Shown here: one piece after another, positions 40,094-50,158 of the stretch
Layout: the number at the start of each line of letters is the position of its first letter
How positions within the stretch are numbered: position 1 is the first letter of the stretch
Assembly (NCBI GenBank): GCA_031282525.1
Contig: JAITDN010000003.1
Coordinates: 124,001-188,000 of the forward strand
Direction: 5' to 3'
Length of the DNA: 64,000 bases
DNA from: Candidatus Endomicrobiellum basalitermitum
GTDB taxonomy: Bacteria; Elusimicrobiota; Endomicrobiia; Endomicrobiales; Endomicrobiaceae
Notes under the pieces: generated by a model
Database searches by the model: none
What the model saw: only the letters and a program-made list of their open reading frames with translations
What the model was told of the DNA's origin: nothing
Made by a program: the position numbers and the translations under genes

Positions 40094-40260
40094 TTTAAAT
40101 TTTCCCCTCTATTTTTACTCTAACCTACAGTTTCTAACTTTTTATGTAATATCTTTCGATGTAATCTGAGAAATATTATCCCTCTTTATCACTATATGCT
40201 TTTCTATAAGGACAAAATCAAATTAAAGTGAATATGTGTAACTAAACACACATACATACT

Positions 40261-40390
40261 TCATCCAACGACAACAACTAAATGCATTATCCCAGAATCT
40301 ATACCTACAAACAAACTACACATTTAAAAAAGCCACCACGTTATTTAAAATTCCTTTTTCTGCAACAAATATTCTAAAATTGTTTTCTCT
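40261..40390 (-). pseudogene. Remnant of a GT9 (heptosyltransferase-like) gene
   Basis: Minus frames give ENNFRIFVAEKGILNNVVAFLNV* and, in a shifted frame, MCSLFVGIDSGIMHLVVVVG*, resembling the GT9 C-terminal signature (FVGxDSGxMHLAxALG). Confidence 0.6.
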
Positions 40391-40594: not shown

Positions 40595-41524
40595 TTATTT
40601 TATCCATTTTTTTATCTCTATAAAAACATCATTTGGTTCAATACAGTCAATATTTTTAGGACTACTCTTATTCCAAAGCAGAGAAGACTTACCTATATAA
40701 GGATACGTTTTATTAATATCTGAAGCCCCAAATATAAAAATAGAAGGGACTTGCAAAACCGCTGATAAATGCATAGGACCAGTATCCGCGCCAATATTGA
40801 CCTTACTTTTTAATAAAACAGCTGCGAGTTCTTCTATGCTAGTTTTACCACATAAATCCACGACCTTATTAGAATTTATTTTACCAAAATCTTTAATTGA
40901 ACCTAAAACTATAATCTGCATATCAAAATATTCATTTTTTATTAAATTGATAAGTTTATGATAATTGTATACACTCCAATCTTTTCCTTTCCCTCTTGCA
41001 AAAGGTATAAAAGAAATAAATTCTCCAAAAATTTTATTATCTTGCAAAATTTTATCCATACATGAATTCACTTTTATATTAATTTCAGGATGATAGTTCT
41101 TACCAGTCAAAAAACGAATAGGTTCAAGATTACGAAGCATGGCATTTAAATTAGCACTTTGAGGATACACTTCCTTTATTAAAAGATTACTGAACTCTTT
41201 CATTCCAGGTGCTCCAATCTTCACTTTTGCTTTTGCAAATTTTGCAAGTAATGCACTTCTTAAAAGTCCCTGTAAATCTATAATTAAATCATATTCCTTT
41301 TCATTAATTTTTTTCAACACTTCAAAGAAACCTATTAATCCTTTTCTTCTGCTCCAAGATATAACTTTATCAACATCAGGACAAATCCTTAAAACAGAAG
41401 TCCACATGCTAAAAACAACCCAACTTATTTCACAATTACAATATATTTTTTTAAAAGCCTCTGCGCAAGGTAAAGCATGAATGATGTCACCAAAAGAACT
41501 TGGTTTAATTATTAAAACTTTCAT
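40595..41524 (-). CDS. Glycosyltransferase family 9 (ADP-heptose:LPS heptosyltransferase-like)
   Basis: KVLIIKPSSFGDIIHALP; DLIIDLQGLLRSALLA; VNIGADTGPMHLSAVL. Confidence 0.9.
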   Translation of the reverse strand: MKVLIIKPSSFGDIIHALPCAEAFKKIYCNCEISWVVFSMWTSVLRICPDVDKVISWSRRKGLIGFFEVLKKINEKEYDLIIDLQGLLRSALLAKFAKAKVKIGAPGMKEFSNLLIKEVYPQSANLNAMLRNLEPIRFLTGKNYHPEINIKVNSCMDKILQDNKIFGEFISFIPFARGKGKDWSVYNYHKLINLIKNEYFDMQIIVLGSIKDFGKINSNKVVDLCGKTSIEELAAVLLKSKVNIGADTGPMHLSAVLQVPSIFIFGASDINKTYPYIGKSSLLWNKSSPKNIDCIEPNDVFIEIKKWIK

Positions 41525-43193
41525 ATTTTTTCTTTACCGCATTAAAAACTTCCTCAACAGATATATCGTGCATACATATAACATCTTTACAATTTCTATT
41601 CCTACAAGGTTGACAATCCACAGTGTGCTGTATGATTTCCGTATTCCCTTTGTACGGACCAGTACGTCTTACATTCGTAGGTCCCAAAATCGCAACAGCC
41701 TGAGTATTTAAGGCTGTTGCGATATGCATAGGCCCCGCCTCATTTCCCACAAAAACCCTACATATCCTTAAGAAAGCACATAATTCTTTCAAAGTAAATT
41801 TTCCAGTCATATCAATTATTTTAACAGAAGAAGTCGCAATTATTTTTTCGTTTAAACCTTTTTCACTTGTCCCACCCTCTTTACCCCCAACAAGAACAAT
41901 ATCAGCATTCAACTCTAATTTCAATTTTTTAGCAAGAGCAGCAAATTTATAACTTTTCCATCTTCTTGAAGTCCAACCAGCACCGGGATGAATACCTATT
42001 ATTTTCTCAAAATCTATATTTTCTCTTAATAATTTATCTGTAATACTTTTAAAATTTTCTTCACGAATTGAAATAGGGTAGCTTATTTCATCACAACAAC
42101 CCAAATATTTCGCGACCTTAAGGTGACGTTCAACGCAATGACAATTTTTAGAAGATTTTATTTCCCTTGAAAACAGCCATGAAAACTCCCTCATATTGTT
42201 TGTAGACGAAGAAGCTATTTTAAATTTCGCATTAGCAAATACAACAAGCAATGCAGATTTAGCAAGTCCATGTAAATCTATACTTAAATCAAACTTTTGA
42301 CTCCTTAATTGTCGTCTTAAATTTCTATAGTAATTAAAAGAAACCCGTCTTCTATTCCAGACAAAAACATTTTCTAACAAAGGATTATTATCTAAAATTT
42401 CGGCACATCTTTCATCAACAATCCAACTTAATCTTGCATTAGGATATCTTCTTTTTATTGCTGAAAGAACTGGCAAAGAAAATATAATATCACCTATTCT
42501 ACTAGGTTGTATAATTAAAATTTTAGGCTCTGGATGATACTCTAAGTACTTTAATATATCTTTTGTCCAGTAATATTTATTAGTAAATTCAAATAATTCG
42601 TTCACTTTCTCTTCTATAATTATAGTTTTTTCATCAATATCATCTTCTTTGTCAATATAAATTGGTTTTCCATAAGCTTGTACCATTTTTGAAAAAGGTA
42701 TTGGGATTATAAATTTATCCCAAGATCTAGAAAGCACAAACTTATTTTTTGATGAACAACTTATCGGAATTACCGGTATACCGGTCTTTTGGGCTACGTA
42801 TACAACTCCAAGTTTTAGTTTATGGTACGGACCCCTAGGACCATCTGCTGCGAAAGCAAGACTATATCCATCACGCGCACATCTTATCATTTTTATTAAT
42901 GCCCTTTTCCCTCCTCTACTCGAAGAACCTCTAATAGTCAAATAACCAAATTTATGCAAAACTCGAGATAAAATCTCCCCGTCCTTTGAAAGACTCACCA
43001 TAATGACTACATTACTTATCTGATGATTAGTTAGATTAGCTAATACTATCGGTAACTCATTCCCATGCCAAAAAGAATAAATTGAAGGCTTAGGGTAGAT
43101 GAAAGTATCATTTATAAATGTCTTTCTCAAGGTTTTATATAGAACACGACATACAAAAACAATAATCTTTACAACAATATTTTTATCATACAC
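41505..43193 (-). CDS. Fusion: DUF374 (LPLAT-like) N-domain + GT9 heptosyltransferase C-domain
   Basis: N-term YSFWHGNELPIVLA...GSSSRGGKRALIKMI...AADGPRGPYHKLKLGVVYVAQKTGIPVIPI. C-term KILIIQPSRIGDIIFSLPVLSAI...GIHPGAGWTSRRWK...VFVGNEAGPMHIATAL. Confidence 0.88.
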   Translation of the reverse strand: MYDKNIVVKIIVFVCRVLYKTLRKTFINDTFIYPKPSIYSFWHGNELPIVLANLTNHQISNVVIMVSLSKDGEILSRVLHKFGYLTIRGSSSRGGKRALIKMIRCARDGYSLAFAADGPRGPYHKLKLGVVYVAQKTGIPVIPISCSSKNKFVLSRSWDKFIIPIPFSKMVQAYGKPIYIDKEDDIDEKTIIIEEKVNELFEFTNKYYWTKDILKYLEYHPEPKILIIQPSRIGDIIFSLPVLSAIKRRYPNARLSWIVDERCAEILDNNPLLENVFVWNRRRVSFNYYRNLRRQLRSQKFDLSIDLHGLAKSALLVVFANAKFKIASSSTNNMREFSWLFSREIKSSKNCHCVERHLKVAKYLGCCDEISYPISIREENFKSITDKLLRENIDFEKIIGIHPGAGWTSRRWKSYKFAALAKKLKLELNADIVLVGGKEGGTSEKGLNEKIIATSSVKIIDMTGKFTLKELCAFLRICRVFVGNEAGPMHIATALNTQAVAILGPTNVRRTGPYKGNTEIIQHTVDCQPCRNRNCKDVICMHDISVEEVFNAVKKKYESFNN

Positions 43194-44478
43194 TCAAATT
43201 CTCTTTCAATTTTTCTATTACAAAAGACACGACATTTTTTTGAGACTCAACAGCTTTTAAAGCATTTTTGCCAATATCTTCAAGAAACCTTCTATCACAT
43301 ATAAATTTCTTTATATTATTATACAAATCATCACCATTATTAACGATTAAAGCACCATTATACTTTAAAAGAATTTCTGACTCTACTTTAAAATTATCCA
43401 TATTTTTACCGAACAAAACTGGTCTACCGTATCCTGCTGGTTCTATAGGATTTTGACCACCTTTATTTACAATTGCTCCTCCCACGTAACATATATCTGA
43501 GATAGAATATATGTCATGTAATTTTCCAAAAACATCAACCAAAATAAATCTACTTTTTAAATTTCCACTGGAAAATAATGAGTATTCAATACACCTATTT
43601 TCAAGGATTTTTACTATAGTTTTAATTCTTGAAAGATGTCTAGGCGCGACAAAGAACTTGATTCCATTGAAATTTAAACTTATCCTATTGAACACATCTG
43701 CGATAATCTCTTCTTCCCCTTCTCTTGTACTGCCTGCAGAAAACACAAAATCATCTTCGCTTAAAAGGAAATCTTCTCTTTTTGAATCTAATGTAAAATT
43801 TCTATCATATTTTATATTTCCTGAAACAATAACTTTACACTTACCGTTGGTCAAAAATGAAAACCTATCAGCATCATCTTTACTCACAGTAATAATAGTA
43901 TCAATTAGCATAATAAATTTATTCCAAAAAAATTTGAATTTCTTATAAATTTTAAACGATTTAGATGACATTCTGCCATTAATCGTAATAATTTTTATAT
44001 TTTTACATGACGCAATATAGAGCATGGTCACCCAAATTTCCGTCTCAAGAAGTATAAGCATATTCGGCTTAACAATATTGAAAAATTTACACATGATGGG
44101 GTATATATCCAATGGAAGCAAAGTTACAAAATCTGCTTTTTGCAAATTCTGTGCATAATCTCTTCCACTTCTAGTAAGAGATGTTAAAACAATGTAATAT
44201 TTATCCTTAAGATTTTCCAAAACAGGTTCTACAGCACGAACTTCACCAAGAGAAGCACAGTGTATCCAAAGAGTTGTTTTTAAGTTTTTATTTAACAGTT
44301 TACAAAACGAAAAACGTTCGGAAAGTTTATAAAAAATTTCTTTGTTATATTTATTATTAAAAATGAAGACAATCAAAATAAACGGCAAAGACAAAACATA
44401 TAGAATATTGTAGAATACGATAAAAAATCTTATCATTTTTATAGTATACAACATCCTCTCAATTAATCTAACAAGCAA
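43186..44478 (-). CDS. waaA: 3-deoxy-D-manno-octulosonic-acid transferase
   Basis: WIHCASLGEVRAVEPVL; ETEIWVTML; GSTREGEEEII; GKNMDNF. Confidence 0.92.
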   Translation of the reverse strand: MLVRLIERMLYTIKMIRFFIVFYNILYVLSLPFILIVFIFNNKYNKEIFYKLSERFSFCKLLNKNLKTTLWIHCASLGEVRAVEPVLENLKDKYYIVLTSLTRSGRDYAQNLQKADFVTLLPLDIYPIMCKFFNIVKPNMLILLETEIWVTMLYIASCKNIKIITINGRMSSKSFKIYKKFKFFWNKFIMLIDTIITVSKDDADRFSFLTNGKCKVIVSGNIKYDRNFTLDSKREDFLLSEDDFVFSAGSTREGEEEIIADVFNRISLNFNGIKFFVAPRHLSRIKTIVKILENRCIEYSLFSSGNLKSRFILVDVFGKLHDIYSISDICYVGGAIVNKGGQNPIEPAGYGRPVLFGKNMDNFKVESEILLKYNGALIVNNGDDLYNNIKKFICDRRFLEDIGKNALKAVESQKNVVSFVIEKLKENLSV

Positions 44479-44714
44479 TCATTACATTCTTACTTAGTTA
44501 TTCAATACTACAAAAAAGAATTTGTATCTGCTAAATCTTTATTATTTATTTTCTATCTTTTCTTTGAGGTACCCAACAAAACAATTCACATGACGAATAT
44601 TTAGGACTAAGTCACATTATATAATATACATATTCTTATACTCACACCTATTTTTTTAATAGAAATGTTCTCCGTGGTTACTTTGTACAAATCTTTAGAA
44701 ATGTAAATGCTGTC

Positions 44715-44996
44715 CTAAAGTTCGCAGTTTTCTTTTTGTGCTTCGACTAAAACAAGCTTTTGTGTAAAACTTTTTGATTGTTTTAAAGCATTAATAGCTA
44801 AAGCAGAAATAATCATTTTTCCAGTATATTCAGCAAGAGTTTCTTCATTCTTCTCATATTCTTCATATAGAACACTTCCTAAAATTATAAAAAATACCCC
44901 CCCCAGTAATTCATTTTGACGAGGTATTTTCTTTATAAGTAAATGAAAAGAAATTCTCTTGAAAAAGTCCCATAAATTAGAGAGAGAGTCATAGAT
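44715..44996 (-). pseudogene. Unlisted open frame / gene remnant with a G8 tract (unknown family)
   Basis: Frame reads DSLSNLWDFFKRISFHLLIKKIPRQNELLGGVFFIILGSVLYEEYEKNEETLAEYTGKMIISALAINALKQSKSFTQKLVLVEAQKENCEL*. No ATG/GTG/TTG near its 5' end. Confidence 0.45.
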
Positions 44997-45177
44997 TTAT
45001 AATAAAAACAACAACACCGTTGAACTGATTTTTCAATATTCCAAGACAGTCCAAGGGGTATTTACCAGTTTTTTTATTAAATACAAAACCTCTCTAACAT
45101 GCAAATTAACTCTAAAATTCTTAGTTTTTCGCATTATATTTTATAAGTTAGAGAAAAACTTCTCTAACTGTTTTGTT

Positions 45178-47533: not shown

Positions 47534-48259
47534 CTATACTAACTTTTTATTATTTATTAACAATTCAAATTTACAACTTAAAATGCTCGCAGCTCTTTTA
47601 CACATAAGCATTCTTGACATGAAAATTTCAAAATATTCTGCAACATTTGATATATGCGTATTAATATTAATTCGTAGGGATATAATTTTTTTATCTTTAC
47701 TAACCCTTAAAGATGACTTTTCTGCTGCAGAGTTTACTCTATCATGAATATTATCACATTTTAAACTATCTAAATTTCTCACTCTAGTTTTATGCACATC
47801 AGATTTATCAGCCAGAACTAAAGCAGCTGCTACAGGATTTCCAAAGTCCCAATCTTCTTCATCGTGGTTTCCTATAGCTGAAATTATAGACGCTATATCT
47901 TCATATTCCATACCCATATCTTTTAATAATCTCATTGATATGAGAGCCGATGATTGTCCATGCCCCTGTCTATTTACAATATTTCCTATATCGTGCATAT
48001 AACCTGCAATCTCAACAAGATTCTGAAACCTCTCCGAATAACCAAGATATACCAAAACATTTTTTGCTCTAGAAGCAACTAAGTTCACATGTCTAAAGCC
48101 ATGTTCAGTATAACCAATCGTTCCTAAATATTCATTAGCACATCTTATAAATGTAGCAATTATAGAATTCTTTTCTATATCTTTAAGCTTTATTTTTATA
48201 TCTGACGATTTTTCTTTTGTATCTGTATACATTATTTTGACCACACAATAAAACAACAC
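47534..48259 (-). CDS. HD-domain phosphohydrolase
   Basis: GFRHVNLVASRAKNVLVYLGY; GYMHDIGNIVNRQGHGQSSA; paralog of the 49466-50158 gene. Confidence 0.85.
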   Translation of the reverse strand: MLFYCVVKIMYTDTKEKSSDIKIKLKDIEKNSIIATFIRCANEYLGTIGYTEHGFRHVNLVASRAKNVLVYLGYSERFQNLVEIAGYMHDIGNIVNRQGHGQSSALISMRLLKDMGMEYEDIASIISAIGNHDEEDWDFGNPVAAALVLADKSDVHKTRVRNLDSLKCDNIHDRVNSAAEKSSLRVSKDKKIISLRININTHISNVAEYFEIFMSRMLMCKRAASILSCKFELLINNKKLV

Positions 48260-49465: not shown

Positions 49466-50158
49466 TTACAAAAATTTATCGTCATTGATGTATAACTCAA
49501 AATTACATTTTAAAACACTACTTGCTCTTCTACAATAATCTATCCTTGACATAAATATCTCAAAATAGTTCATAACTGAGCATATAGTGCTATCAATCTT
49601 TATTTTCAGTTCAATGCTCATTTTTTCTTTATTCACAACAACATTAACTTTCTTACAAGCAGAAACAACCAAAGAATGTTTATCAAAATCATATAAATCT
49701 TCTGCTCCTATTCTCTCATGACTCACATCTGTCTTATCTCCAATCATAAGAGCAGCCGCAACAGGAGACACTGGCTCTATAGTCTTATCTTCATGACAAC
49801 CTATAGCACTTACTATAGTAAAAACATCCTCATCATATCTATCATCTCCAATAATATTTAAAAACATTATTGCACTGCTTTGATTGTGTCCACGTTTTGA
49901 AATTATGTTACCAATATCGTGTAAATAAGCTGCAATCTTAGCAAGTTCATGTTCTCTTTTTTTATAACCTAAATATTTTAAGACTCGTTCTGCAATTTTT
50001 GCAGCACGTATAGCATGATTTCTATCATAACTTTTACGTTTTATAAGATTAAAAGTTTCATTCGTATTTTCAAAATACTCCTCCATATATTTAAAATACA
50101 TTTGTACTTCCACATTATTTCTTATCTCTCTATAAGTCAATATTCTATCCATAATCAA
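49466..50158 (-). CDS. HD-domain phosphohydrolase (paralog)
   Basis: RNHAIRAAKIAERVLKYLGYKKREHELAKIAAYLHDIGNIISKRGHNQSSA; same C-terminus as the 47534-48259 protein (NYFEIFMSRIDYCRRASSVLKCNFELYIN). Confidence 0.85.
   Translation of the reverse strand: MIMDRILTYREIRNNVEVQMYFKYMEEYFENTNETFNLIKRKSYDRNHAIRAAKIAERVLKYLGYKKREHELAKIAAYLHDIGNIISKRGHNQSSAIMFLNIIGDDRYDEDVFTIVSAIGCHEDKTIEPVSPVAAALMIGDKTDVSHERIGAEDLYDFDKHSLVVSACKKVNVVVNKEKMSIELKIKIDSTICSVMNYFEIFMSRIDYCRRASSVLKCNFELYINDDKFL

Follow-up and report, generated by a model that had tools for sequence, protein, structure and literature searches.

A DUF374 (LpxJ-like) domain joined to a divergent GT9 glycosyltransferase in Endomicrobiales: a predicted two-activity enzyme of lipid A and inner-core assembly

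A locus of Candidatus Endomicrobiellum basalitermitum raises the question of why a DUF374 domain and a GT9 glycosyltransferase should share one open reading frame beside a Kdo transferase gene, and of what the joined product would do. The stretch analyzed, hereafter the window (64,000 nucleotides; G000:C4:124001-188000), belongs to an assembly of 719 kb in 4 contigs that is 84% complete. The features of the locus are as follows:

44637..45134, minus strand: decayed remnant of a ~190-aa gene that lies between secF and waaA in relatives
43186..44478, minus strand: waaA-like Kdo transferase gene (PF04413), upstream of the fusion, overlapping its start by 8 nt
41505..43193, minus strand: whole fusion ORF, 562 aa, GTG start (ORF call and Pfam)
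42639..43193, minus strand: N-terminal DUF374/LpxJ-like half, aa 1-185 (Pfam and alignments)
42525..42638, minus strand: conserved linker, aa 186-223 (consensus LNKLFEFTxKYYWxKDIxKYLEYHPxPKI)
41508..42524, minus strand: C-terminal GT9 half, aa 224-562, GT-B fold, with Arg/Glu at the positions of WaaC K192/D261
40595..41524, minus strand: unfused GT9 gene, downstream of the fusion, overlapping its end by 20 nt
40148..40387, minus strand: remnant of a third GT9 gene, found downstream in relatives

The fused gene, its junction and its neighbors

An earlier note on this DNA had described DUF374 and GT9 domains within a single 562-aa ORF, itself part of an overlapping waaA>fusion>GT9 unit, and both descriptions were confirmed. 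The motifs quoted were present, both Pfam domains were matched (PF04028, DUF374, at aa 60-123 with 92.3 bits vs. a gathering score of 26.8; PF01075, GT9, at aa 290-536 with 141 bits), and the overlaps were of 8 nt and 20 nt. The gene order in Endomicrobiales is secD-secF-hypothetical-waaA-[DUF374-GT9]-GT9-GT9, and the fusion is still open in the window though the ~190-aa gene on the secF side and the third GT9 gene have decayed. Elsewhere in the window, two similar HD-domain-like ORFs on the same strand (47534-48259 and 49466-50158) flank a yajC-like gene.

A missed stop or start at the junction had been named as a possible flaw, and none was found: relatives read across the junction in the same single frame without an internal stop, and the linker sequence is kept among them. 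A search of the linker across relatives for a conserved internal start, which would free a GT9 protein, yielded none; the one in-frame GTG in the window linker is not conserved in relatives. A fused frame created by a sequencing or assembly artefact at this point was rejected as having practically no chance of being true, since the same fused frame recurs in separate assemblies whose sources differ in host and environment. The AlphaFold model of the whole fusion protein reached a pLDDT of 88.5 and a pTM of 0.88.

Predicted activities of the two halves

The role of DUF374, presented in the earlier note as poorly defined, is in fact known from studies of LpxJ, as the domain is now called. This lipid A secondary acyltransferase, with demonstrated activity, provides the lipid A of Rickettsia with a secondary acyl chain; its action can or must precede that of LpxL and even Kdo transfer in Helicobacter, Campylobacter and Wolinella (PMC6148475). 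The activity of R. typhi LpxJ is abolished by mutating W60, H61, D86, D132, W172 or D173 (PMC6148475), and these six essential residues are matched by W42, H43, D71, D117, W158 and D159 of the window protein. The aligned peptides (R. typhi/window, the former taken from the primer table of PMC6148475) were FWHNML/FWHGNE, SPHLDGKIL/SLSKDGEIL, TPDGPKGP/AADGPRGP and KSWDKLIIPIPFG/RSWDKFIIPIPFS. All six residues were invariant in 17 fusions aligned; in 28 fusions, all were invariant except D159, kept at 90% or more. The DUF374 half resembles LpxJ at every essential position; it belongs to the LpxJ family and is predicted to act as a lipid A late acyltransferase.

The domain had also been placed at or near the Kdo/heptose step. 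This stands as regards its company, as it is kept with Kdo and inner-core genes (in fusions to GT9 and to WaaA, and in adjacency to waaA), but not as regards the step, which would be lipid A acylation rather than Kdo or heptose transfer, given the activity demonstrated for LpxJ. That this half acylates some other lipid instead, e.g., a glycerophospholipid, is improbable: among solved structures, an outgroup DUF374 protein matched just one by sequence, a PlsC-type enzyme, and that very weakly (E=0.05), and the alignment showed no HX4D/E motif at H43 of the window protein (GNELP comes next), unlike in PlsC-type enzymes, the residue pattern being that of LpxJ. The neighborhood in the order, waaA and GT9, also argues against such a substrate. 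In structural comparisons, the Foldseek list for the whole-protein model was dominated by the GT9 half, to which all best hits belonged, and a single-sequence model of the DUF374 half alone, built without an alignment, had a pLDDT of 33.

For the GT9 half, Foldseek indicated a GT-B fold, with 3tov, WaaF (1psw) and WaaC (2h1h) as best hits. Among NCBIfam profiles, it narrowly passed that of heptosyltransferase II (TIGR02195, 140.1 vs. a cut-off of 134.6) and fell below the cut-off for heptosyltransferase I. The alignment with E. coli WaaC showed that Asp13 and His266 are kept, while Arg replaces Lys192 and Glu replaces Asp261, a signature present in all fused rows examined, in the rumen versions described below and in one Myxococcota relative; the downstream unfused GT9 of the window retains Lys and Asp at both catalytic positions. 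In trees, the fused GT9s formed a separate clade, not with WaaC, and the unfused neighbor clustered with the waaA-adjoining GT9 of outgroup families, although the joining of this waaA-linked group to E. coli WaaC was weaker, with long branches. Judging from the Arg/Glu replacements, the fused half is not an ordinary WaaC; its separate clade sets it apart from the orthologues of WaaC, and, given the grouping of its neighbor, the WaaC role would be better assigned to the unfused gene. The complete inner-core heptosyltransferase of the earlier note is weakened as a reading: Asp13 is kept, but Lys192 and Asp261 are replaced, and the WaaC-like gene is the unfused neighbor. On a Myxococcota contig (L133:156-2331), a GT9 with the Arg/Glu signature is followed by a WaaC-like GT9, in the same order as in the window. 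No DUF374 was seen beside GT9 in the deltaproteobacterial (L133) and Planctomycetota (L134) matches, both of which lie at contig ends.

Taken together, we consider it fairly probable, from sequence, that the fusion is a two-activity enzyme combining LpxJ-type acylation with GT9 core-sugar transfer at the lipid A/inner-core step. It would work at the cytosolic face of the inner membrane, where the LpxJ-type domain would transfer a fatty acid to a primary acyl chain of lipid IVA or Kdo-lipid IVA, its presumed acceptors, and the GT9 domain, with a predicted activity and donor, would place a core sugar, probably heptose, onto the same growing molecule. In doing so it would act alongside the products of the flanking genes, WaaA and the WaaC-like GT9, and the joining of the halves may bring some benefit.

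The set of lipopolysaccharide genes in these genomes bears on the first of the two activities. Matches to PF03279 (LpxL/LpxM) were found in neither the window genome (84% complete) nor its nearest relative (G014, 85% complete) nor a further relative (G024, 99% complete), while most other members of the class had one or more. The absence would be weak evidence from the incomplete window assembly alone, and is made firmer by the 99%-complete relative that also lacks a match. As no gene of the LpxL/LpxM family was found, late acylation in the window genome and in the 99%-complete relative probably depends on the DUF374 half alone. The window genome also gave matches to LpxK and WaaA, and to RfaE2-like and GmhA-like genes that score narrowly below their curated cut-offs (175.6 vs. 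181.5 for the former; 183.2 vs. 209.45 for the latter), which makes an ADP-heptose pathway likely, short of proof. In 12 genomes of the genus, some of them incomplete, WaaA and DUF374 matches were both absent, and LpxK was matched in 7 of the 12.

LPLAT domains bind membranes, and GT9 enzymes are otherwise soluble or peripheral. A non-catalytic DUF374 half, serving to anchor its GT9 partner on the membrane or on lipid A, would fit this background, yet it is quite improbable in view of the conservation of all six residues essential for acyl transfer, the existence of stand-alone GT9 versions in relatives and the failure to find another late acyltransferase family member in several of these genomes.

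Distribution, selection and history of the fusion

A scan of GTDB genomes with a fusion profile returned 62 loci, 45 of which carried a complete fused ORF (551-610 aa), all in Endomicrobia. Identity to the window fusion was 46-77% in the rows aligned, and the closest named match was 'Candidatus Endomicrobiellum mastotermitis' (77%), so that the bearer of the window very probably lives as an endosymbiont in flagellates of the termite gut. Among 40 relatives searched, most genus members had a stop-free fused frame (68-77% identity for full-length matches), as did all other families of the order that were sampled (47-51%). No record in a plasmid collection covered 80% of the fusion query, and the rows listed matched the GT9 half only. 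Pairwise dN/dS values involving the window (NG86) were 0.12-0.30 and alike in both halves, with synonymous sites near saturation in some pairs. Both halves are under purifying selection, and the higher values point to some relaxation of selection in the lineage of the window. In the nearest relative (L073:6001-7692), two near-invariant glycines of the GT9 half are changed (SRMSDII, GNEAWPMH), and this half may be starting to decay there.

DUF374 has a gene of its own in the outgroup families of the class, behind secD-secF-hypothetical and, in one family, with waaA in between; in others, a WaaC-like GT9 follows waaA at another locus. In rumen relatives (Ruminimicrobiellum and kin; L060-L063, L119-L131), DUF374 occupies a new site and GT9 stands alone beside waaA. 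The rumen DUF374 genes retain the linker, followed by degraded sequence in which hhalign recognized the beginning of the GT9 half (probability 89%, E=2e-6), and in trees they fell inside the fused clade, a clade of fused sequences only being rejected (p-AU 0.005). Both the placement and the relic indicate that the fusion came first and the split later. The simplest account is a single origin of the fusion, at the base of Endomicrobiales or earlier, when a divergent GT9 was attached to a DUF374 gene. Relatives with two separate genes, which the earlier note had named as evidence against the fusion, gave a mixed picture: separate in outgroups, fused across the order and re-split in the rumen relatives. 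An unfused DUF374 of another family (f9) also fell within the fused clade; this placement was distrusted, as a grouping of the fused and rumen rows together was not rejected (p-AU 0.44).

Decay of the fusion took more than one form. In Ca. E. glyptotermitis (L130:5767-7443), stops and frameshifts interrupt the DUF374 half, and the GT9 half is open; PF03279 had no match in G050, apparently the same genome. In an Rs-D17-like genome (G062; L064), breaks or reduction to fragments affect waaA, the fusion and both GT9 genes downstream. The gene is dispensable as a fusion, some descendants having split it or lost one half.

These cases are relevant to a reading with a substantial chance, if somewhat short of even, in which the chain holds two independent enzymes and their joining serves co-expression only, with no channelling or ordering of steps. 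The separate genes of the rumen relatives and the open GT9 half retained in Ca. E. glyptotermitis next to a broken DUF374 half are as this reading would have them, whereas the maintenance of fusion and linker across the order speaks against it, and the confident single-assembly model (pTM 0.88) fits a defined arrangement of the halves, without proving it. Within the preferred reading of a two-activity enzyme, a more far-reaching version is tentative and rather unlikely: an order-wide bifunctional enzyme that would couple acylation to glycosylation, with a GT9 donor or acceptor specificity changed along with the Arg/Glu positions, and that would serve as the sole late acyltransferase in some intracellular symbionts.

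Significance and comparison with known systems

That DUF374 belongs to lipid A/inner-core assembly was already known through LpxJ. In the literature searched, no description of the joined DUF374-GT9 form was found; it may be listed automatically in domain-architecture databases. Measured against that literature, the new points are that DUF374 is joined to a divergent GT9 across a whole order, that this joining was later undone, and that fusions to WaaA exist in parallel. The WaaA fusions were found in two Elusimicrobiota families (f14 and f17; L153-L163) as ORFs of ~625-675 aa with DUF374 at the N-terminus and a Kdo transferase at the C-terminus, four of them confirmed by Pfam and the others recognized by the same motifs; a test of whether they originated once or twice gave a p-AU of 0.29. 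In other parts of the phylum, DUF374 has its own gene, which overlaps or abuts waaA. LpxJ-like domains have repeatedly been joined to core glycosyltransferases, to GT9 in one order and to WaaA in two families, and nature thereby provides evidence that late acylation takes place physically close to core assembly. A simple case would be that of endosymbionts lacking LpxL/LpxM, in which a single domain would set the number of acyl chains of lipid A.

Compared with the LpxJ proteins of Helicobacter, Campylobacter, Wolinella and Rickettsia, the DUF374 half shares PF04028, the six residues defined in R. typhi and the lack of HX4D/E, but here the domain, with a predicted activity, forms the N-terminal part of a longer protein that ends in a GT9. 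With WaaC and WaaF, the GT9 half has in common the GT-B fold, PF01075, the Asp13 and His266 positions and the narrow pass of TIGR02195, and differs from them by its Arg for Lys192, its Glu for Asp261 and a clade of its own. The closest parallel in architecture is that of the f14 and f17 fusions, in which DUF374 likewise stands N-terminal to a glycosyltransferase of the lipopolysaccharide core, although the partner there is a Kdo transferase, not a GT9, and the lineages are separate.
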